A stretch of DNA of 64,000 nt, taken from assembly GCF_900168255.1 (NCBI RefSeq), contig NZ_LT799838.1, positions 496,001 to 560,000 on the forward strand, written 5' to 3'. Origin of the DNA: Psychrobacter sp. DAB_AL43B. GTDB lineage: Bacteria > Pseudomonadota > Gammaproteobacteria > Pseudomonadales > Moraxellaceae. A program made the position numbers and the translations under genes. Positions 21,230-32,613 of the stretch are shown piece after piece; positions within the stretch are counted from its first letter, which is position 1; each line of letters opens with the position of its first letter. The notes under the pieces were generated by a model. It searched no databases. It was not told where the DNA came from and saw only the letters and a list, made by a program, of their open reading frames with translations.

Positions 21230-21705
21230 AAGGTATCCTTATTAATTTTTTAAAGAATGTTCTCTTAAAAGAACTGTCTGTTAAAAGAACAATCTCTTAA
21301 ATGATAGTAGGGCATTCATTCGCCTTTTAAACGGCGATTTTATGATCAAAATGCGTTTTTATTATTTGACAATAGGGTCATACCACCATGTTCAATCACC
21401 ATTTATTAATAGTGTGCCAACAATAATAAGTGAATAGATTACGACTGTCAGGTGTTTATTGTGGCAAATGAAAATTTGCGCCATTATATCATTTTGTTTT
21501 CAGCTGCGCTTAGCGCATAAAGCTTTATCAATGATTGTTTAACAGCCGCTTATAGAATCCTGTTAAGATAATCTCAAACGATATTTAATGGTTTTTGCTT
21601 ATTAAGCACTTATCTGAATAATTGATTAATAAATCATGAATAGTTCGTTAATAAGCGCCTCATAAAATATCTGTCGCAAAAATATCAGTGGAGATTGAAT
21701 CTAGC
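21230..21705. other. Divergent control region between cysM and gacS
   Basis: A 476-bp spacer. Close to cysM there is a 16-bp imperfect palindrome, GTTCTCTTAAAAGAAC (21259-21274). It is followed by a partial second copy at 21276-21290 (GTCTGTTAAAAGAAC) and a remnant CTCTTAA at about 21294. This spaced repeat could be an operator in the cysM leader. No gene is seen in the rest. Confidence 0.45.
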
Positions 21706-24700
21706 ATGGCTTACAAAAAGCGTTTTGATACCAGTAGTGCCTATGGTCAGCTGATTATATTGGTGTTTTTGCCAATTTGTTTACTGGCGGCAGTAGGTGG
21801 TATTTTGGTGTTTCATGAAACCATGCGAGCCAGTGATTCAGAGCAAGAAGTATTGGCCGAGGCGGTACTCATCCGTTATACACCAACGATTGTGGAGCTT
21901 ATTCCGGAACTATTGGAGCAAGAGCGTGAAAAGGCAGAATCGGAGAGAGGCAACAGTAATACAGATAGTACTTCGCCAGCCGCGATGGCGGCGCTAAAAA
22001 GTATTCAAGATAGGTTAGGGCGCTTGCAGTCGGAGCAGCATGTGCAGCGTATCGCCATTATTAATCAGAATAATCAAGTACTGGCAACGGTGGGTTATGG
22101 TACTGATGAGGCGTGGCCAGAGATAGACCCATCAGAGCGTTTTTTATCACAAAAACCAACGCCCATCGGTACCGCTTACGGCAGCGTATTGGACGAGTTT
22201 GACGGTCAGCAGTTGTGGTTATTGATTGATATGGATAATGAGCCGCTTTATATCGCCCGCTATCGTATCGCGATGGCATTGGTAATTACTGGCTTATTCA
22301 CTATTTTAATCTTGCTGCTGAGCTTGAATATCTATTCAAAACGTTGGATAGCGCCAATCTATGAGCTACGTTTGCAGCTGCAACGTACCCATGTCGACAA
22401 TCTATACCAACCCATTCCGGTTGAATCGAATGGTGAGCTGAATTTGTTACAACAAGATTTGGTTAGAACATTACGCCGTTTACATGGGAGCTTTCAAGAG
22501 CTTAAAGACCATGCGGAGCAAACGGAAGATGATTTACGTTTGGCTTTTGATGAAATGGAAATGCAAAACATCTCTATTCGCAATGCGCGTGATGCGGCAA
22601 TCTCAACCAGCCAAGCCAAATCGGCATTTTTAGCCAATATTAGCCATGAACTGCGTACGCCATTGAATAGTATTGATGGTTTTATTAATTTGCTTGCGCG
22701 TCACGGTGAGCTCAATCCTGAACAAGACTTGTATGTACAAACCATACGCAAATCGTCCGCACACTTACTGGCGTTAGTGAATGATGTGTTGGATTTTTCC
22801 AAGATTGAAGCAGGTAAATTGGTACTTGATCGTCATGAATTTGATCTTTATGAAACCATCTATGATGTGGTCGATATGCTGTCACCGGTATCTGCAGAAA
22901 AAGGTCTGCGCATGGCGGTACTGTTTTATAACGATGTACCGATGCGTATCAATGGTGATGCCTTACGACTCAAGCAAGTACTGACCAATATCGTCGGTAA
23001 TGCGATTAAATTCACTGACAGTGGTGATGTGGTGGTGCGCGTCAGCTTAGATGACCATCAGGACAATTATTTGATGATTAGCGTGCAAGATAGTGGCAAA
23101 GGTATTTCACTGTCTGATCAAAAGATGCTTTTTCAAAGCTTTAGCCAAGGAGATCCTTCAATCACGCGCCAATATGGTGGGACAGGATTGGGTCTGGTCA
23201 TCTCCAAGCAATTGACACGACTGATGGGCGGCGATATTGGTTTTTATGATAATGTGCAAGAAAATATCTCTAATCAAGGGGCGACGTTTTGGTTTCGCAT
23301 GCCAGCGCATGTCGATGTGTTAGAGGCTGCTACTGGTCAAACCATTGAGCTACCGGTTCTAGCACCACTGGCGAGCGCGACCGATGAGTTTAATGTCTTA
23401 ATCTGGATCAATCATACTGCCTCTATACAAGTACTCAAAGCCAGCTTGCAGCACTTGCCGATTAAACTGACCCAAGCAAACTCATTGCCGGGCGTGCTTG
23501 AGTCGCTAAAAGAGCAGGGAAATTATTGGGATTGGGTTATCGTTGATGATGACACCCAAGACGATATGATGGCGCTGCTTAAACAAATTCGCCTGCATTA
23601 TCAAGGTAAGCTTGCGGTATTTGGTTATCAAGTTGCCGCTGACCAAGCACTGCTCAATCGCTACCATGCCAATATATTGTATGAACCATTAGATAAAAGA
23701 CAGCTATATGCCATGCTTGATACGCAAAAGCGTAGCGCACCGACAGGTATCCCAGAACCACGTTGGAAAGGCGTTACCGTATTGGCAGTTGATGATCATT
23801 TGCCAAACCTACTGGTGCTAGATGCCCTGCTGAGTGAGCTTGGCATTCATGTAATCACAGTGAGTAGTGGTTTTGACGCGATAGAACTTATTAGCAAGCA
23901 GCAAACCAAGAATATTAAAACCGCCAAAACTGAAAAACAAAGTCTGTCGAAAAAGACCCAGATATCTAAAGCTGAAACGCGCGATGATGTTAATAAAACA
24001 GCGGCTGGCTCGCTACATCTTGAAGACGTCACTATAGAGGAGAAAGGCGCTGTGCAGCATAAAGACAGTATTGATCTTATCTTTATGGATATTCAAATGC
24101 CGCGTATGTCAGGACACGAAGCGGCGCGGCAAATTCGCAATATTGAAGCGGCTGACAGCCATATTCCTATTATTGCATTGACCGCACATGGACTAGCTGA
24201 TGAGCGTGATAAATTAATCGCCAGTGGCATTAATGACTATGTGGGTAAGCCTATTAGTCAGCCACAGTTGCTACAAGTGCTGCAAAAATGGCTTGGGCGC
24301 ACTGCATCGCCTTCACCATTAACGGCAGTAAACGAAAATATTCCAAAAAATAACGGTGAACAAAGCAGTAATTTACAAGCTTTGGAATCGAAAACCAACC
24401 ATTCTCAAAATGCTGGTTTACAGAGTACTGATTCCAAAGGTACTGATTTGCAAAATGCGATGACGCAACCTTCTTCAGCTGCATATTCAGACGCTACAAC
24501 GCCTATTTATCAAATGATTAAAAGGAATGAGGCAAATAGTGATAATGCTGCCAAGATACGCAGTCGGCAAAAGATTACTCGCCCTTTATCACTGAAGAAA
24601 ATTCGTGATGACTATTTGCGTGACAGTCAGCCGCGTGAGGATTATAGGCGTGAAACCTTGCGTGAAAATCAGCCACGCTATGAAAATCTGCGCTATCAAG

Positions 24701-25212
24701 AGCAGGGGCAAGCACCATTGAAGACGCACGCTTTCCAAACGGTCGACAGTATTAAAGATGAAGTATTAGAAAATACAGGCTTAAACGCACGCGTGTTTGA
24801 TAGCTTGGATATTCTAAACTGGCAAGATGCACTGACTCGCTCAGCCAATAAACCGGATCTCGCTGCCAAGCTGATTATTATGATGCTCGATACCATTAAT
24901 GATGAAAAGCAGGCATTGACGCAAGCATGGGAAACGCGCAATCGTAGTATGCTTGGGCAAATTGCTCACCGTATATTGGGCGGCAGTCGTTATACTGGAG
25001 TGCCGCAGTTACGCCAAGCCAGCCAAGATCTAGAGGATAAGTGCTTACTAAACATCCAACATACCACGCCTGCGCAGTTTGCGATGCTTGAGCCTTATTA
25101 TGAGGCCTTGTTATTAGCGTTAAATAATTTGCAAACGCTTGATTTGTCCTCTTATCCGCAGCTGAACTATCATCGTCTGAGCGAAAATGACATGACTTGG
25201 AAAATGATTTAA
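21706..25212 (+). CDS. gacS: Tripartite hybrid sensor histidine kinase, GacS/BarA type
   Basis: Inner-membrane sensor that would phosphorylate a GacA/UvrY-type regulator by His-Asp-His relay. There are two membrane helices (about 14-38 and 185-208) around a periplasmic domain, then a HAMP linker. HisKA has His314 in NISHELRTPLNS, and HATPase has GNAIKF and GGTGLGL. A receiver has Asp795 in FMDIQMPRMSG, and a C-terminal HPt has His1088 in IAHRILGG. The receiver carries an unusual insertion of about 50 residues, and about 150 low-complexity residues separate receiver and HPt. GTG 21688 is an alternative start; ATG 21706 was preferred because GGAG lies before it. Confidence 0.92.
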   Translation: MAYKKRFDTSSAYGQLIILVFLPICLLAAVGGILVFHETMRASDSEQEVLAEAVLIRYTPTIVELIPELLEQEREKAESERGNSNTDSTSPAAMAALKSIQDRLGRLQSEQHVQRIAIINQNNQVLATVGYGTDEAWPEIDPSERFLSQKPTPIGTAYGSVLDEFDGQQLWLLIDMDNEPLYIARYRIAMALVITGLFTILILLLSLNIYSKRWIAPIYELRLQLQRTHVDNLYQPIPVESNGELNLLQQDLVRTLRRLHGSFQELKDHAEQTEDDLRLAFDEMEMQNISIRNARDAAISTSQAKSAFLANISHELRTPLNSIDGFINLLARHGELNPEQDLYVQTIRKSSAHLLALVNDVLDFSKIEAGKLVLDRHEFDLYETIYDVVDMLSPVSAEKGLRMAVLFYNDVPMRINGDALRLKQVLTNIVGNAIKFTDSGDVVVRVSLDDHQDNYLMISVQDSGKGISLSDQKMLFQSFSQGDPSITRQYGGTGLGLVISKQLTRLMGGDIGFYDNVQENISNQGATFWFRMPAHVDVLEAATGQTIELPVLAPLASATDEFNVLIWINHTASIQVLKASLQHLPIKLTQANSLPGVLESLKEQGNYWDWVIVDDDTQDDMMALLKQIRLHYQGKLAVFGYQVAADQALLNRYHANILYEPLDKRQLYAMLDTQKRSAPTGIPEPRWKGVTVLAVDDHLPNLLVLDALLSELGIHVITVSSGFDAIELISKQQTKNIKTAKTEKQSLSKKTQISKAETRDDVNKTAAGSLHLEDVTIEEKGAVQHKDSIDLIFMDIQMPRMSGHEAARQIRNIEAADSHIPIIALTAHGLADERDKLIASGINDYVGKPISQPQLLQVLQKWLGRTASPSPLTAVNENIPKNNGEQSSNLQALESKTNHSQNAGLQSTDSKGTDLQNAMTQPSSAAYSDATTPIYQMIKRNEANSDNAAKIRSRQKITRPLSLKKIRDDYLRDSQPREDYRRETLRENQPRYENLRYQEQGQAPLKTHAFQTVDSIKDEVLENTGLNARVFDSLDILNWQDALTRSANKPDLAAKLIIMMLDTINDEKQALTQAWETRNRSMLGQIAHRILGGSRYTGVPQLRQASQDLEDKCLLNIQHTTPAQFAMLEPYYEALLLALNNLQTLDLSSYPQLNYHRLSENDMTWKMI

Positions 25213-27679: not shown

Positions 27680-27719
27680 TTAGCTGGTAGATTCTACTTA
27701 TTGACATTTATTCATTATT

Positions 27720-27761
27720 AAAAAAGCATTCATACGTTTGTTACGTATTGAATGCTTTTTT
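27720..27761 (+). terminator. Terminator of the MFS gene
   Basis: AAAAGCATTCATACGT pairs with ACGTATTGAATGCTTTT (one bulge), followed by T residues, 41 bp after the stop. Confidence 0.93.
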
Positions 27762-28053
27762 AATGTCTGGTTCTGTCTTATTTTTAGCATATAGTAATTT
27801 GTTAATACAAGCCTTGCTACTACTAAGTTGTTGAGTCATTAGTCTTATTATCACATGAAGATGTTGTATGTAATTATTACTATATATAAACATTTGTATG
27901 GCATTGCCAAACAAAGTTATTGCAATGCATGAGTTGCTAGATTATCATCTAACGTAATTTTCTGTAATTAAGTGTTGTTAAGACTTTACCTGACTTTGCA
28001 GGATTGTTTTTATCACTGACTTTCAGAACAACGTCGAGATTTAAGGACAACAG
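27762..28053. other. Promoter-bearing spacer before the five-gene signalling operon
   Basis: AT-rich, non-coding, 292 bp. I see no repeat or confident sigma-70 hexamers. AAGGACA precedes the first ATG. Confidence 0.35.
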
Positions 28054-28926
28054 ATGAAGCAGTTATATAGAGTGTTACCGATTGTATTGAGTGTTGGCTT
28101 ATTTGGGTGCGGTAATTCTGCGACTCAGAGCGATAGCAGTTCAGCTAATAAAGCAATCTCAGAAAATAAAGAAGCGTTTGTCAGTCAATTACCCGACACA
28201 GCACCAGTTATTAAGGTTGCAACAACGGGTACCATGCCGCCGTTTTCGTTCCAAGATGACTACGGCAATATGCAAGGCATTGATATCGATTCAATCCGTG
28301 CTATCGGTGAAGCGCAGGGTTTCAAGGTCGAGTTTTATAAAGAGACTTGGCAGGATATGTTTGACAGTGTTGAGTCTGGCGGTCGTGATTTAGCGATTTC
28401 AGGTATCTCTTATAAAGTCGATCGTGATCAGAGATATGGTCTTTCAAATTCTTATTTCTTTAACCCTTCTGCGGTTATGTATGAGAAAAAGAATTTGACC
28501 ATTAATAGCTTGAATGACTTAAAAGGTTTACATGTCGCTGGTATGGAAGGAACCAAACAAGTTGATCAAGTCAGGGAAATGGGTGGGTATAGTGAACTGT
28601 CCACTACCATAACAACCTTTTTGTTATTTGAGGACTTGATGCAAGGTAAGGTTGATGCGATTGTTCAAGACTTACCTTTATTACAATATACGGCAGCTAA
28701 CCACCCTGAACATAAAGTGGTAATCGTGCCTTATGAGGATGAAAATAACCCATCAGCGCAGCAAGTAATCTTGATGGCAAAAGGGAATGGCAAGCTTATT
28801 AATACTGTTAATGAGGGTATTACTAAGTTGAAAGACAAAGGAATATTTAAAGAAATTGAACAAAAATGGTTAGGTGGGACAGCTCCTGCTACTACTAGCA
28901 ACACTACCAATCAACAAACGAACTAA
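28054..28926 (+). CDS. Solute-binding lipoprotein (SBP_bac_3 family), putative sensor partner
   Basis: Periplasmic binding protein of the polar amino-acid type (PF00497), 290 residues. The signal peptide ends in the lipobox LFG|C, so it is probably anchored to a membrane by acylated Cys19. The domain begins PVIKVATTGTMPPFSFQDDYGNMQGIDID and includes GGRDLAISGISYKVDRDQRYG and a hinge region with LHVAGMEGTKQ. No ABC permease or ATPase gene follows. Instead the CheA-like kinase starts 14 bp downstream, so a role as ligand receptor for that kinase is inferred. The ligand is unknown. Confidence 0.9.
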   Translation: MKQLYRVLPIVLSVGLFGCGNSATQSDSSSANKAISENKEAFVSQLPDTAPVIKVATTGTMPPFSFQDDYGNMQGIDIDSIRAIGEAQGFKVEFYKETWQDMFDSVESGGRDLAISGISYKVDRDQRYGLSNSYFFNPSAVMYEKKNLTINSLNDLKGLHVAGMEGTKQVDQVREMGGYSELSTTITTFLLFEDLMQGKVDAIVQDLPLLQYTAANHPEHKVVIVPYEDENNPSAQQVILMAKGNGKLINTVNEGITKLKDKGIFKEIEQKWLGGTAPATTSNTTNQQTN

Positions 28927-28940
28927 GGGGTTAAGATAAG

Positions 28941-31172
28941 ATGGCAACCACACCTAATATTGACAATAAACGCTATCGCAGTCTAATTGTTTCAATTGCA
29001 CTGTTTTTATCTTTGATTGGCGCTTTGCTAGCGTTTACTTTCTACACATCAAGCTTACTCGAAAGAAATACAGTTTTAATTGACCAAACCAACCAAGTGG
29101 CTAATAGTGCACAAGCGGTAATTAAAGACCTTTTTGACTTAGACAGTAGTTATGGTGAAGATACCAGCTCGCCACATATCCAGCGAGTTTTAGAGCGTTT
29201 GGAACAAAATACAACGCTTATTACAGGCTCTATCAGTGCGATCGAAAAAGGTGGAAAAATCACTGATATCGCTGGTAATAGTTATAACTTACCAAAGATT
29301 AATAACAAGTCTCAAACTCAAATTGCAGCAGCCAATGAGCAGTGGAAAGCGTTAGAGCCTAAGATTCAAGCATATCTCAAAGATGCTGATAACATCATGA
29401 TTGATTCCTCTGATGAATTGACCCAAGCCGTTGAGCAGGCAAAAACTTCAAGTTTGTTGATTAATGATTCATTAGATCAGCTCACCGATGAAGTGTTTAT
29501 TAACGCTGAACGTCAAGCAACGACTATTCGTCTTGTTCAGATACTGGGTGTTGCAGCCATTTTTGCTTACTTTTTGATCTTTGTATTCTTCTTTGTGCGT
29601 CGTTTACGTGATACCGATGCTGAAGCATTGGCCGCTCGCCGTGAAACACAAGAAATCATGGAAACGGTAAATACCGGTCTGTTTTTGCTAGATAAAGATT
29701 TGAATATTGGACAGCAGCATTCTCGCGCACTGAATGGCATTATTGGTGCGGACAGATTGTCAGGAGAAAACTTTGCCGATGTACTGCGCGGTCGTATTTC
29801 AGATAAAGATTTGAAAACCACCCGTCAGTTTATTGAGCAATTATATAACCCACGTGTGAAAGAAAAACTGGTTGATTCTTTAAATCCATTGCATAAAGTG
29901 ATGCTACACAATACATCTGGCGAAGACAGTGCGACCAGCCGCTTCTTAGACTTTAAGTTTTCACGCGTTTATGAAGATAAAGATATTGCGCGTATTTTGG
30001 TCAACGTCAATGACGTCTCAGATGCGGTTTATTTAGAGCAGCGCCTAGAGAAAGAACGCTCGCAAAACGATATGCAGATTGAGATGTTGACCACTATCTT
30101 AAACGTTAATCCAAAAATTATTAACGAGTTTATTAGCAATACCAAAACCCATATCGATAAGATGAACAACATTTTGAAAAACCCTGGTAGCTCACAATTT
30201 GAGCTCGAAGGTAAATTAAAGGCTATCTATCGTGAAATGCACAGCTTAAAAGGTGAGGCTTCTGCGCTTAAACTGCATAGCTTTACTAAAATCGCGTCAG
30301 ACGCTGAAGACAAGCTTGATGCGTTGCAAAATCAAGGTAAGTTATCTGGTAATAACTTCTTACCACTAGCGGTACATTTGGATGACTTACTCAGTCTGTC
30401 GAACACCATTGAGACGTTGGGTGAGCGTATCAATCAAGCCGCCCCAAAGGCTGCAAGTATTGCTAAGTCAGTAGCGCCAATGACGACTGCATCAGTTGCT
30501 GAGACGTTAAAAACCAGTACGCCACAACCAATCGTTACCAATCATGCATCAGTAGATAGCGCTATCAATAGTATGAGTATTAACGGTGATAATGAAATTG
30601 ATTTGAGTGATGAGTCAGATGATGAGCAGTTGTCTTATTATCAAGATTTTGCCCAAGACATCGCAGTAAGACAAGGTAAGCAAATACAGCTTAACGGTCA
30701 TAATTTGGCGCACGTAAACATACCTGCACACCTTAAGCAGCCGATTAAAGAAATCAGTATTCAATTGTTACGTAATGCAGTGGTACATGGTATCGAATCA
30801 CCTGAAGCGCGTCAGTCAGCAGGTAAATCTGTGGTCGGTAGTATCGACTTAAAGATGCAACGTGACAGTCAAAACTTAATCATTGCGCTACAAGATGACG
30901 GTCAAGGTATCGACTATGAAGGCATTCGTCATAAGCTAGTTGCAGATGGTCGCTTTGAGCAAGATGCTGCCAGTCAGCTGACTCAGGGTGACTTACTCAA
31001 AACATTATTTGCTTCTGGCTTCTCTACTAAAGAGCATGCCGATGAAGATGGTGGACGCGGTGTGGGCTTAGATGTCATCAAGGCGTTAGTTAAAGAATAT
31101 AACGGTAAGCTCAATGTTAATAGTGAGCTTGGTCAGATGACACGTTTTGTCATTACGCTACCTGCTGCTTAA
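28941..31172 (+). CDS. Membrane-bound CheA-like histidine kinase with HPt domain
   Basis: Predicted receptor kinase, 743 residues. Two membrane helices (about 14-36 and 197-220) enclose a roughly 160-residue helical periplasmic domain. A PAS-like region (about 232-345) has a vestigial motif LFLLDKDLNIG. An HPt domain has the phospho-acceptor His434 in MHSLKGEA. A CheA-type HATPase has the N box LLRNAVVHGIES, DDGQGID and GGRGVGLDVIKA. It lacks the CheA P3 dimerisation and P5 CheW-like domains. Unlike ordinary sensor kinases the phosphorylated His is in HPt, so phosphotransfer to the next gene's receiver is likely. Confidence 0.88.
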   Translation: MATTPNIDNKRYRSLIVSIALFLSLIGALLAFTFYTSSLLERNTVLIDQTNQVANSAQAVIKDLFDLDSSYGEDTSSPHIQRVLERLEQNTTLITGSISAIEKGGKITDIAGNSYNLPKINNKSQTQIAAANEQWKALEPKIQAYLKDADNIMIDSSDELTQAVEQAKTSSLLINDSLDQLTDEVFINAERQATTIRLVQILGVAAIFAYFLIFVFFFVRRLRDTDAEALAARRETQEIMETVNTGLFLLDKDLNIGQQHSRALNGIIGADRLSGENFADVLRGRISDKDLKTTRQFIEQLYNPRVKEKLVDSLNPLHKVMLHNTSGEDSATSRFLDFKFSRVYEDKDIARILVNVNDVSDAVYLEQRLEKERSQNDMQIEMLTTILNVNPKIINEFISNTKTHIDKMNNILKNPGSSQFELEGKLKAIYREMHSLKGEASALKLHSFTKIASDAEDKLDALQNQGKLSGNNFLPLAVHLDDLLSLSNTIETLGERINQAAPKAASIAKSVAPMTTASVAETLKTSTPQPIVTNHASVDSAINSMSINGDNEIDLSDESDDEQLSYYQDFAQDIAVRQGKQIQLNGHNLAHVNIPAHLKQPIKEISIQLLRNAVVHGIESPEARQSAGKSVVGSIDLKMQRDSQNLIIALQDDGQGIDYEGIRHKLVADGRFEQDAASQLTQGDLLKTLFASGFSTKEHADEDGGRGVGLDVIKALVKEYNGKLNVNSELGQMTRFVITLPAA

Positions 31173-31192
31173 TTAAGGAAAATAGATAAGCT

Positions 31193-31555
31193 ATGTACAA
31201 ATTAATGATTGTTGATGATTCCAATATTATTCGCAACCGTATTCAGCGCGCTTATGATTCTGGTCAGTTTATGTTGGTTGCTACGGCAACCAGCGGTGTC
31301 CAGGCCATTGAGAAATTCAATATACATCGTCCTGATGTGGTTACGATGGACTTAACCATGCCGCAAATGGATGGGCTTGAGTGTATTGAAAAAATCATTG
31401 CGATTGACCCTAATGTCCGCATTTTAGTGGTATCAGCGTTGTCTGATAAATCCACTGGGATTGAAGCCTTATCATTGGGTGCTAGCGGATTTTTATGTAA
31501 GCCTTTTTCAGAAGAAGAGCTGGTAGAGTCTTTGTATGAGTTGGTACAAGACTGA
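31193..31555 (+). CDS. Single-domain response regulator, CheY-like
   Basis: A stand-alone receiver of 120 residues with no output domain. The acidic pocket is IVDDS (residues 7-9), the phospho-acceptor is Asp53 in VTMDLTMPQMDG, and the switch and lysine residues occur in VVSALSD and FLCKPFSEEE. It starts 20 bp after the kinase gene. Output must be through protein binding or through loss of phosphate by the neighbouring CheX proteins. Motor genes are absent from this window. Confidence 0.93.
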   Translation: MYKLMIVDDSNIIRNRIQRAYDSGQFMLVATATSGVQAIEKFNIHRPDVVTMDLTMPQMDGLECIEKIIAIDPNVRILVVSALSDKSTGIEALSLGASGFLCKPFSEEELVESLYELVQD

Positions 31556-31601
31556 TATTGTCCAATAATTTAAGTAAATATCTTATTAAAGAACACACAT
31601 T

Positions 31602-32051
31602 ATGAAAGAGCAAAAGTTACAAGTTTTTGTGAGTATTATCACCAACTATTTTAATCAGTTTGGTAATGAAGAGCTTATTGTAGATACGCCTTATTTGCTA
31701 GAAAATCAACAACCTAAAGTTCACGATTATACCGGCGTCATCGGCATATCAGGGGTTCAAAAAGGGGTGGTTTATTTTTCTGCTACCAGCGCGCTATTGG
31801 ATAACATCCTAGATAGCATGGGCGAGACAGATAAAAGTGAGGATAATTTAGTAGACCTAGTAGGCGAGGTTGCTAATACCATTTCGGGTAATGCTCGTAA
31901 TGAGTTTGGCTCAGAATTCCATATTTCTGTACCCTTCGTATGCAAAGGCTCACCGCAAAGTATTATTTTGCCTAAAAGTGGACGCTCTTTTATCATTCCA
32001 GTGAGTTGGCGCGGTCAAATCGGGGAGATTGTGGTTTGTTTGCAGGACTAA
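31602..32051 (+). CDS. CheX-type phosphatase, paralogue 1
   Basis: The 149-residue protein has the CheC/CheX/FliY fold features: an N-terminal helix, a strand-rich region (YTGVIGISGVQKGVVYFSA) and the catalytic ExxN motif in GEVANTISGNARNEFG. CheX proteins dephosphorylate CheY. Only one ExxN motif is seen, as in CheX rather than CheC. It follows the CheY-like gene by 46 bp, so that receiver is the likely substrate. It resembles the next gene along its whole length. Confidence 0.9.
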   Translation: MKEQKLQVFVSIITNYFNQFGNEELIVDTPYLLENQQPKVHDYTGVIGISGVQKGVVYFSATSALLDNILDSMGETDKSEDNLVDLVGEVANTISGNARNEFGSEFHISVPFVCKGSPQSIILPKSGRSFIIPVSWRGQIGEIVVCLQD

Positions 32052-32100
32052 ATACAATACCTCGTGACGATAAATATGTAAATATGGACGATGAACTATT

Positions 32101-32550
32101 ATGGTTAATGTAGAAAAGTTAGGCGTCTTTTTAAGCTCAATCAGCGCATTCTTTGCGCAGATTGACGATGAGCCAGTGGTGATTGATACGCCTTATTTGC
32201 ATAGCAATAAAAATGCCGTGGGTTACGATTATAGCGGCATGATTAAGATATCTGGCCCTCTTGAAGGCTGCGTTTATGTCAGCGCCCCTAGCAACTTGTT
32301 GCGCGAAGTGATCAAAGTCATGGGTGAGCCTGATTCATCAATTACGATGATGAAAGACTTATTGGGTGAAATGGCAAATACCATTTCAGGTAACGCCCGT
32401 GCTGAGTTTGGCGCAGATTTTATTATCTCACCGCCCAAGATTATTGAGGGAATACCCAGTATTCCTTATTTACCAAGAGATCGTCAAAGCTATGTGACGC
32501 CATTTACATGGCGTGGCTACAAGGCCGTCATAGGTATCTGCATCGCTTAA
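32101..32550 (+). CDS. CheX-type phosphatase, paralogue 2
   Basis: The 149-residue product is the same length as the previous one and similar over its whole length. Shared segments are IDTPYL, YDYSGMIKISGPLEGCVYVSAP and GEMANTISGNARAEFG (catalytic ExxN intact), and the ends are FTWRGY here and VSWRGQ in the first paralogue. The arrangement points to tandem duplication with divergence. CheX enzymes act as dimers, so homo- or heterodimers are both possible. It ends the operon, before a strong terminator. Confidence 0.9.
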   Translation: MVNVEKLGVFLSSISAFFAQIDDEPVVIDTPYLHSNKNAVGYDYSGMIKISGPLEGCVYVSAPSNLLREVIKVMGEPDSSITMMKDLLGEMANTISGNARAEFGADFIISPPKIIEGIPSIPYLPRDRQSYVTPFTWRGYKAVIGICIA

Positions 32551-32585: not shown

Positions 32586-32613
32586 AAAAACGACGTTGAG
32601 ACGTCGTTTTTTT
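32586..32613 (+). terminator. Terminator of the signalling operon
   Basis: AAAAACGACGT (32586-32596) pairs with ACGTCGTTTTT (32601-32611) around a TGAG tetraloop, followed by T residues. Confidence 0.95.

Follow-up and report, generated by a model that had tools for sequence, protein, structure and literature searches.

The present analysis concerns a window of 64,000 nucleotides from Psychrobacter sp. DAB_AL43B (contig NZ_LT799838.1, forward-strand positions 496,001 to 560,000; the window is this whole stretch) and, within it, an operon of five intact same-strand (+) open reading frames (ORFs; 28054-32550), encoding a solute-binding lipoprotein (SBP), a transmembrane kinase, a CheY-like response regulator and two CheX phosphatases. 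Judged by sequence comparison within the genus, the SBP and the periplasmic sensor of the kinase are a co-inherited unit that is swapped as a matched cassette among relatives. It is quite likely that this is a solute-sensing operon, with the orphan SBP as the ligand-binding half of a receptor whose other half would be the four-helix bundle of the kinase.

The binding protein and the kinase sensor as one exchangeable unit

The kinase was found in 78 of the 100 sampled genus genomes (best E <= 4.2e-167). The genus set comprises 79 loci, namely all 78 and that of G201 (the window being used for G000), and 74 of them have an intact kinase; L063 and L134-L137, with broken or cut kinases, were excluded from the segment correlations, the Mantel tests and the type counts. 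In L134, two ORFs of 435 and 132 aa, which may belong to a mobile element, split the kinase gene. A full SBP lies immediately 5' of the kinase in 63 of the 74 intact loci, SBP ORFs below 270 aa (L104, L106, L107) being scored as 'no full SBP'. When SBPs and sensors are sorted into types, 55 loci combine A with A, eight combine B with B, seven lack an SBP and carry an unrelated sensor, and mixed pairs are absent (0/63 among loci with a full SBP directly upstream); the other four are three loci with a short or split SBP ORF and L035, whose sensor is of type B and whose SBP gene lies elsewhere. In the seven SBP-less loci, the periplasmic domain is 11-16% identical to that of the window kinase, yet the PAS-like and Hpt domains are 80-99% identical.

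Close relatives differ in precisely these two segments. Between L073 and L102, identity of the core (PAS-Hpt-ATPase with CheY, CheX and CheX) rounds to 100%, compared to 48% for the sensor and 43% for the SBP. Likewise, L130-132 are 99% identical to their nearest relatives in the core, but 46-47% in the sensor and 40-42% in the SBP. L077, which has no SBP, is 97% identical to L065 in the core and 13% in the sensor. At the DNA level, three locus pairs were compared in 150-base bins. For L102/L073 and L105/L130, identity is about 90-99% upstream, with weaker bins (70-85%) just before and at the SBP start, falls to 46-65% from within the SBP gene to kinase codon ~165-215 (about the second transmembrane helix, TM2) and then rises to 91-100%. 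For L065/L077, identity is already down to 42-63% from ~290 nt before the SBP and stays so until near kinase codon 210-260. Across 61 loci (1830 pairs), the Spearman coefficient between the identities of SBP and sensor is 0.79 (partial 0.74 given the other segments), whereas the correlation of SBP identity with other kinase segments does not exceed |r| = 0.17. After dereplication to 38 loci, the partial Mantel coefficient of SBP with sensor is 0.69, a value reached in 0 of 999 permutations (highest 0.41), and that of SBP with core given the sensor is 0.22.

Linkage alone can co-swap adjacent genes, a point against this interpretation that unlinked cases answer only in part. It underlies an alternative that we regard as improbable, namely that the kinase senses alone and the SBP next to it serves some other purpose, such as scavenging for an unlinked transporter, the co-swap being recombination of adjacent genes. 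The swapped blocks indeed cover adjacent DNA, some family members have no adjacent SBP, and the modelled fold of the kinase sensor resembles a chemoreceptor domain that binds small ligands directly. Also in line with self-sensing, seven loci hold two or three full SBPs and a type-B SBP accompanies a type-A sensor in five of them, so that the pairing is not strictly one-to-one. What argues for a partnership between SBP and sensor is that the SBP co-occurs with the sensor type even where the two are unlinked. Overall, a close SBP (E <= 1e-35) is present in 35 of 36 family genomes with an SBP-type sensor and in 0 of 113 others (149 genomes), although these genomes are related and a Fisher p for the contrast, which ignores phylogeny, is not a fair probability. 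Sensor type was confirmed singly for 27 genus members of the 36 (47-100% identity) and by separate comparison for the other nine, and the 113 genomes consist of 100 in which no kinase match reaches E <= 1e-30 and 13 with a match that is broken, has another sensor or leaves the sensor uncovered. Furthermore, all seven intact genus loci with an unrelated sensor are without an SBP. Their gaps share no ORF of at least 30 codons except for one 18-residue match (L077-L080), and no such ORF is common to more than two gaps; a small gene replacing the SBP was rejected on this ground.

Five genomes (G088, G108, G168, G173 and G179) have an SBP-type sensor with no adjacent SBP and a close SBP elsewhere (best 182-242 bits, 38-46% identity). 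G042 and G024, with swapped sensors, contain only distant SBPs (63-68 bits, compared to 66 for the second-best of the window genome). Ten neighbours of unlinked SBPs (seven SBPs, in G088, G108 and G179) were scanned with Pfam and none is an ATP-binding cassette (ABC) component, which also speaks against scavenging for a transporter. The first-pass annotation had held that its reading would fall if the genes were unlinked in relatives or if the SBP belonged to an ABC system elsewhere. The SBP is indeed unlinked in the five genomes and in G150, yet co-occurs with the sensor there, and the scanned neighbours gave no sign of an ABC system. Its proposal that the kinase senses directly, perhaps through the binding protein, holds insofar as the kinase has its own sensor and SBP and sensor appear to evolve together; the SBP is, however, only one exchangeable input. 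Sensing through the binding protein is thus a supported part of that proposal, as far as sequence comparison goes.

Several further observations weigh against the proposed solute-sensing operon with the SBP as a receptor half. G145 is the sole exception to the co-occurrence, with an SBP-type sensor (~44%) and no close SBP (best 94 bits), and G468 is intermediate (sensor 37%, best SBP 113 bits). In G108, an internal stop interrupts the best-scoring unlinked SBP, though two more in that genome are open. A Gly follows the lipobox Cys of the window SBP, and by the E. coli rule a lipobox Cys followed by Gly could route the lipoprotein to the outer membrane. Finally, the output has no backing at this locus.

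Tandem SBPs stand before one kinase in L100 and L125 (three each) and in L120, L121, L128, L071 and L076 (two each), possibly several ligands for one receptor. In G088 (L035, L036), a distant sister kinase is encoded three times, on contigs C8, C19 and C32, with equal scores against the window kinase.

Operon components and the class of the kinase

The features of the operon are collected in Table 1. The SBP belongs to SBP_bac_3 (Pfam, E 8.3e-31), and amino-acid-binding proteins form the majority of the 48 PDB sequences that it matches at E <= 1e-10. Arg124 and Asp206 align with the Arg gripping the ligand carboxylate and the Asp gripping the ligand amino group in such proteins, and the ligand is probably amino-acid-like.

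Table 1. Coordinates of the operon and its flanking hairpins within the window
Feature	Position	Strand	Description
Hairpin and T run	27718..27763	+	After upstream MFS gene; -21.5 kcal/mol, z -8.2; separates MFS gene from operon
SBP lipoprotein	28054..28926	+	SBP_bac_3, 290 aa; lipobox LFGC, Cys19
SBP Arg124	28423..28425	+	Aligns with conserved Arg of amino-acid-binding proteins; invariant 63/63
SBP Asp206	28669..28671	+	Aligns with conserved Asp of amino-acid-binding proteins; invariant 63/63
Kinase	28941..31172	+	743 aa: TM1, four-helix periplasmic sensor, TM2, PAS-like, Hpt, linker, CheA-like ATPase
Kinase periplasmic sensor	29052..29525	+	Residues 38-195; four-helix bundle; segment exchanged together with SBP
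Kinase PAS-like domain	29676..30014	+	Residues 246-358; alpha/beta pattern in structure model; no Pfam PAS match
Kinase Hpt	30111..30440	+	Residues 391-500; phospho-acceptor His434, codon 30240-30242
Kinase CheA P4-type ATPase	30618..31166	+	Residues 560-742
CheY-like single-domain response regulator	31193..31555	+	120 aa; Asp53, codon 31349-31351
CheX1 phosphatase	31602..32051	+	149 aa; E89-x-x-N92 at 31866-31877
CheX2 phosphatase	32101..32550	+	149 aa; E90-x-x-N93 at 32368-32379
Hairpin and T run	32586..32611	+	After CheX2; -12 kcal/mol, z -3.3; likely intrinsic terminator of operon

The kinase matches Hpt (E 1.4e-6) and HATPase_c (E 1.2e-14) in Pfam, and its Hpt and ATPase resemble CheA P1 and P4, respectively, in both sequence and fold, while neither the CheW domain nor the CheA dimerisation domain is listed by Pfam at E up to 1. 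The P4 domain forms the C-terminus, with no CheW/P5 beyond it. The PAS-like label rests on the structure model and a sequence pattern. Residues 503-558, between Hpt and P4, are disordered in the model and have no Pfam P3 match (E <= 1), although HMMER often misses P3 according to the available part of a CheA survey (PMC10542144). That part of the survey also gives a CheW domain in 100% of CheA sequences; of the CheA features that it names, the window kinase has the Hpt with its His and the P4-type ATPase and has no CheW/P5. Because the CheW domain is absent, the kinase is not a CheA by this partial account (PMC10542144), and the idea of a CheA without its receptor was dropped. Rather, the kinase is of two-component style and is accompanied by a lone CheY and two CheX phosphatases. 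Its named close relatives are from Psychrobacter.

The CheY-like protein matches Response_reg (E 2.3e-28), with a CheY, 1tmy, as its best PDB match. CheX1 and CheX2, 46% identical to each other, match the CheX family PF13690 (E 4.5e-21 and 9.7e-20) and both have its ExxN pair. Residues D8, D9, D53, S81 and K103 of CheY and the ExxN of each CheX are unchanged in 72/72 genus loci, as is H434 of the kinase in 74/74. From these families and invariant residues we infer the phosphate route and the role of the phosphatases. In a receptor made of SBP and sensor, an amino-acid-like solute would bind the SBP, which in its liganded form would dock onto the periplasmic sensor of the kinase; the signal would then travel by TM2 and the PAS-like domain and reach the ATPase of CheA type, by which His434 in the Hpt of the same kinase would be phosphorylated. 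The phosphate would move from His434 to Asp53 of CheY, CheX1 and CheX2 would strip it from CheY, keeping the signal fast and reversible, and phosphorylated CheY would touch a protein target encoded elsewhere. The combination of a single receiver and phosphatases of its own points to a rapid, contact-type output.

The intergenic gaps are 14, 20, 46 and 49 bp. Both hairpins in Table 1 were assigned from folding energy; neither was picked up by a consensus terminator scan, in which terminators were no commoner than in shuffles, and a consensus promoter scan did no better than shuffled sequence. In Psychrobacter, the operon sits between an MFS gene and rpsB-tsf. Pfam identifies the seven scanned neighbours as a hybrid histidine kinase, an enoyl-CoA hydratase, an MFS transporter, rpsB, tsf, a transglycosylase and an LrgB-like gene. 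As these include no ABC transporter component, whether permease or ATPase, the idea that the SBP serves an adjacent ABC system was discarded. The hybrid histidine kinase (1174 aa; HisKA, HATPase, receiver and Hpt) lies three genes upstream of the operon at 21688-25212.

Much of the first-pass annotation stands: the coordinates and gaps of its five genes were reproduced, as was the SBP without a transporter (among the seven neighbours); its transmembrane kinase with Hpt and CheA-type ATPase but no CheW was borne out by Pfam, fold and model, its lone receiver and two phosphatases by Pfam matches and putative active-site residues that do not vary, and its terminator by folding. It recognised a membrane sensor kinase and missed the PAS-like domain; the gene content and order that it described are real, but variable or absent SBPs in relatives escaped it. 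Its label of a receptor-less chemosensory operon needs amending: the system is not a CheA/CheW/MCP (methyl-accepting chemotaxis protein) system minus its receptor.

The wider kinase family and its nitrate branch

The kinase-CheY-CheX family is spread over Beta- and Gammaproteobacteria, at times inside nitrate-assimilation clusters, with kinases also in Moraxella, Cardiobacteriaceae, Neisseriaceae, Cellvibrionaceae, Polaromonas, Ramlibacter, Steroidobacter and others. The wider loci are the best 80 from a scan of named genomes in which more existed, and a class-level search of 274 genomes gave nine matches at E <= 1e-35, including that of the window, from which no frequency was drawn. Anywhere in the fetched stretch, a CheY-like ORF occurs in 60 and a CheX-like ORF in 52 of 61 loci outside Psychrobacter, some of which share an organism. 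The order kinase-CheY-CheX recurs in other genera, and the SBP of relatives is variable or absent. In ten sister kinases, a ribose-type binding lipoprotein stands directly 5' (Peripla_BP_4 in the four checked with Pfam), and one of these ten has a CheX within 1.3 kb. One to three ribose-type lipoproteins precede a sister kinase in L164, L165 and L196 (Cardiobacteriaceae) and in L037, L040, L046, L050, L055 and L057 (Moraxella kin), mostly without CheX. Mapping the label 'SBP_bac_3 adjacent' onto a core tree of 98 kinases takes 11 changes, at least eight of them forced by starred branches; the tree is a quick one with several long branches and a root for drawing only, and losses of adjacency are counted as changes. 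Because of these forced changes, kinase inputs seem to have been repeatedly exchanged or lost.

One branch has a nitrate signature. The N-box of McpN binds nitrate (PMC6381276), and nitrate-sensing kinases are marked by an N-box-like motif (PMC8199190), as stated in the accessible portions of these papers. Taken as [IVL]-[ND]-x-A-G-x-Q-R-M-L-[ST]-Q and scored in strict and relaxed patterns (identical sequences removed, close relatives kept), it occurs in 26 of the 73 kinases that have no SBP beside them, in 0 of 68 with SBP_bac_3, the window kinase included, and in 0 of 10 with the ribose type. An Arg at an N-box column (40/73) was set aside in favour of motif counts, the column being not truly comparable in SBP-less sensors. 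All 14 kinases beside at least one nitrate gene have the N-box, 13 by pattern (two in the strict published form, 11 relaxed) and L211 by alignment, its motif lying further along the sequence. Kinase-CheY-CheX sets amid nitrate-assimilation genes, with N-box sensors, include L188, L203, L214, L195, L200, L028 and others. L188 carries on one strand an NMT1_2 binding protein, a permease, the kinase, CheY, CheX, a nitrite-reductase-like and a molybdopterin-reductase-like gene, the names nrt, nir and nas being assigned from domains. By their sequence motifs, the N-box triads of Burkholderiales and other proteobacteria are possibly a nitrate-sensing system that has gone unrecognised. When recurrent neighbours of the kinase loci were examined for a possible output, those annotated pointed to nitrate genes only, most other recurrent ORFs being unannotated.

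These neighbourhoods favour a second guess at the output, which we hold to be rather unlikely: control of nutrient uptake or assimilation, with phosphorylated CheY acting on transport or metabolism. Besides L188 and the 14 kinases near nitrate genes, an ammonium transporter gene follows kinase-CheY-CheX in L031 (6411-10584). However, the Psychrobacter operon lies away from assimilation genes, and placement by nutrient genes equally fits taxis toward that nutrient. In L025 (8927-13357), a receiver-Ser/Thr protein kinase fusion begins 4 bp after kinase-CheY-CheX and is a candidate output protein.

Output and comparison with known systems

The genome is a single contig of 3.31 Mb. Its one MCP match and two CheW matches all lie at 2.80-2.81 Mb, outside the locus, in a separate Chp-like cluster. 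One of the two CheW matches is part of a 2318-aa protein that also has a CheA-type ATPase, and the cluster further encodes the MCP and the other CheW. FliG, the one flagellar family searched, has no match in the genome, and the organism appears to be without flagella. Flagellar output is unlikely because there is no FliG match and MCP and CheW are confined to this region; it was excluded for this genome on the FliG result, one family having been tested. The first-pass annotation saw no flagellar, pilus or MCP gene near the operon, and missed the MCP/CheW/CheA-like set elsewhere. That set, as the only site of CheW or MCP matches in a genome without FliG, prompts a first, tentative guess at the output: CheY may feed the type IV pilus (Pil-Chp) machinery, giving surface taxis without an MCP. 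Against this, no pilus genes are recognised near the operon (most neighbours in other loci being unannotated), and CheA-type ATPase matches persist in 18 of 22 sampled genus genomes without the kinase, with no dependence seen.

Parts of the operon are already known, namely CheA, CheY, CheX and, from the accessible text of PMC11113362, SBP genes beside sensor kinases. The combination of SBP, CheA-like kinase, CheY and CheX, or cassette exchange in it, is not described among the matches listed in open-licence PMC (titles and abstract starts), which agrees with the initial view that no characterised system has exactly this make-up. It is possible, if short of probable, that the operon represents a distinct signalling class between two-component systems and chemotaxis, in which a receptor-kinase with a CheA engine, CheY and CheX takes plug-in SBP/sensor cassettes recombined onto an unchanged core, and in which several orphan SBPs, tandem or scattered, feed one hub kinase in some species, reporting several nutrients with no MCP. 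If the operon works as proposed, it would show how bacteria lacking flagella turn components of chemotaxis into a self-contained receptor for nutrients, and at the family level one branch may sense nitrate directly through the N-box and another via a binding protein. Because nature provides different SBP/sensor alleles on almost the same kinase core, the operon also offers a clean system for studying how an SBP communicates with a four-helix-bundle sensor.

With the Thermotoga-type CheA/CheY/CheX core, the operon shares the P1- and P4-like kinase domains, a CheY closest to 1tmy and CheX proteins with ExxN; it differs in that its kinase has no CheW/P5, no detected P3, and its own membrane sensor and PAS-like domain, and in that there is no MCP in the locus. 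LuxPQ, TorT-TorS and ChvE-VirA are SBP-coupled sensor kinases whose phospho-acceptor domain is of the HisKA type. As in these, a binding-protein gene adjoins that of a membrane kinase, the SBP is linked to or co-inherited with the sensor, and the SBP is likely a co-receptor; unlike them, the operon has a CheA-type Hpt and ATPase, a lone CheY, CheX, and exchangeable SBP_bac_3 or ribose-type cassettes. SBP genes also lie close to the kinase genes of AgtS and AruS in Pseudomonas aeruginosa, but the AgtS sensor is itself annotated as SBP_bac_3 and bound neither of two SBPs tested, according to the part of that report available (PMC11113362). Finally, the kinase relatives near nitrate genes resemble nitrate sensors of the McpN/NarX type (PilJ, N-box) in showing a PilJ match or an N-box, whereas the SBP-coupled kinases, the window kinase among them, differ from these in having no N-box (0/78).

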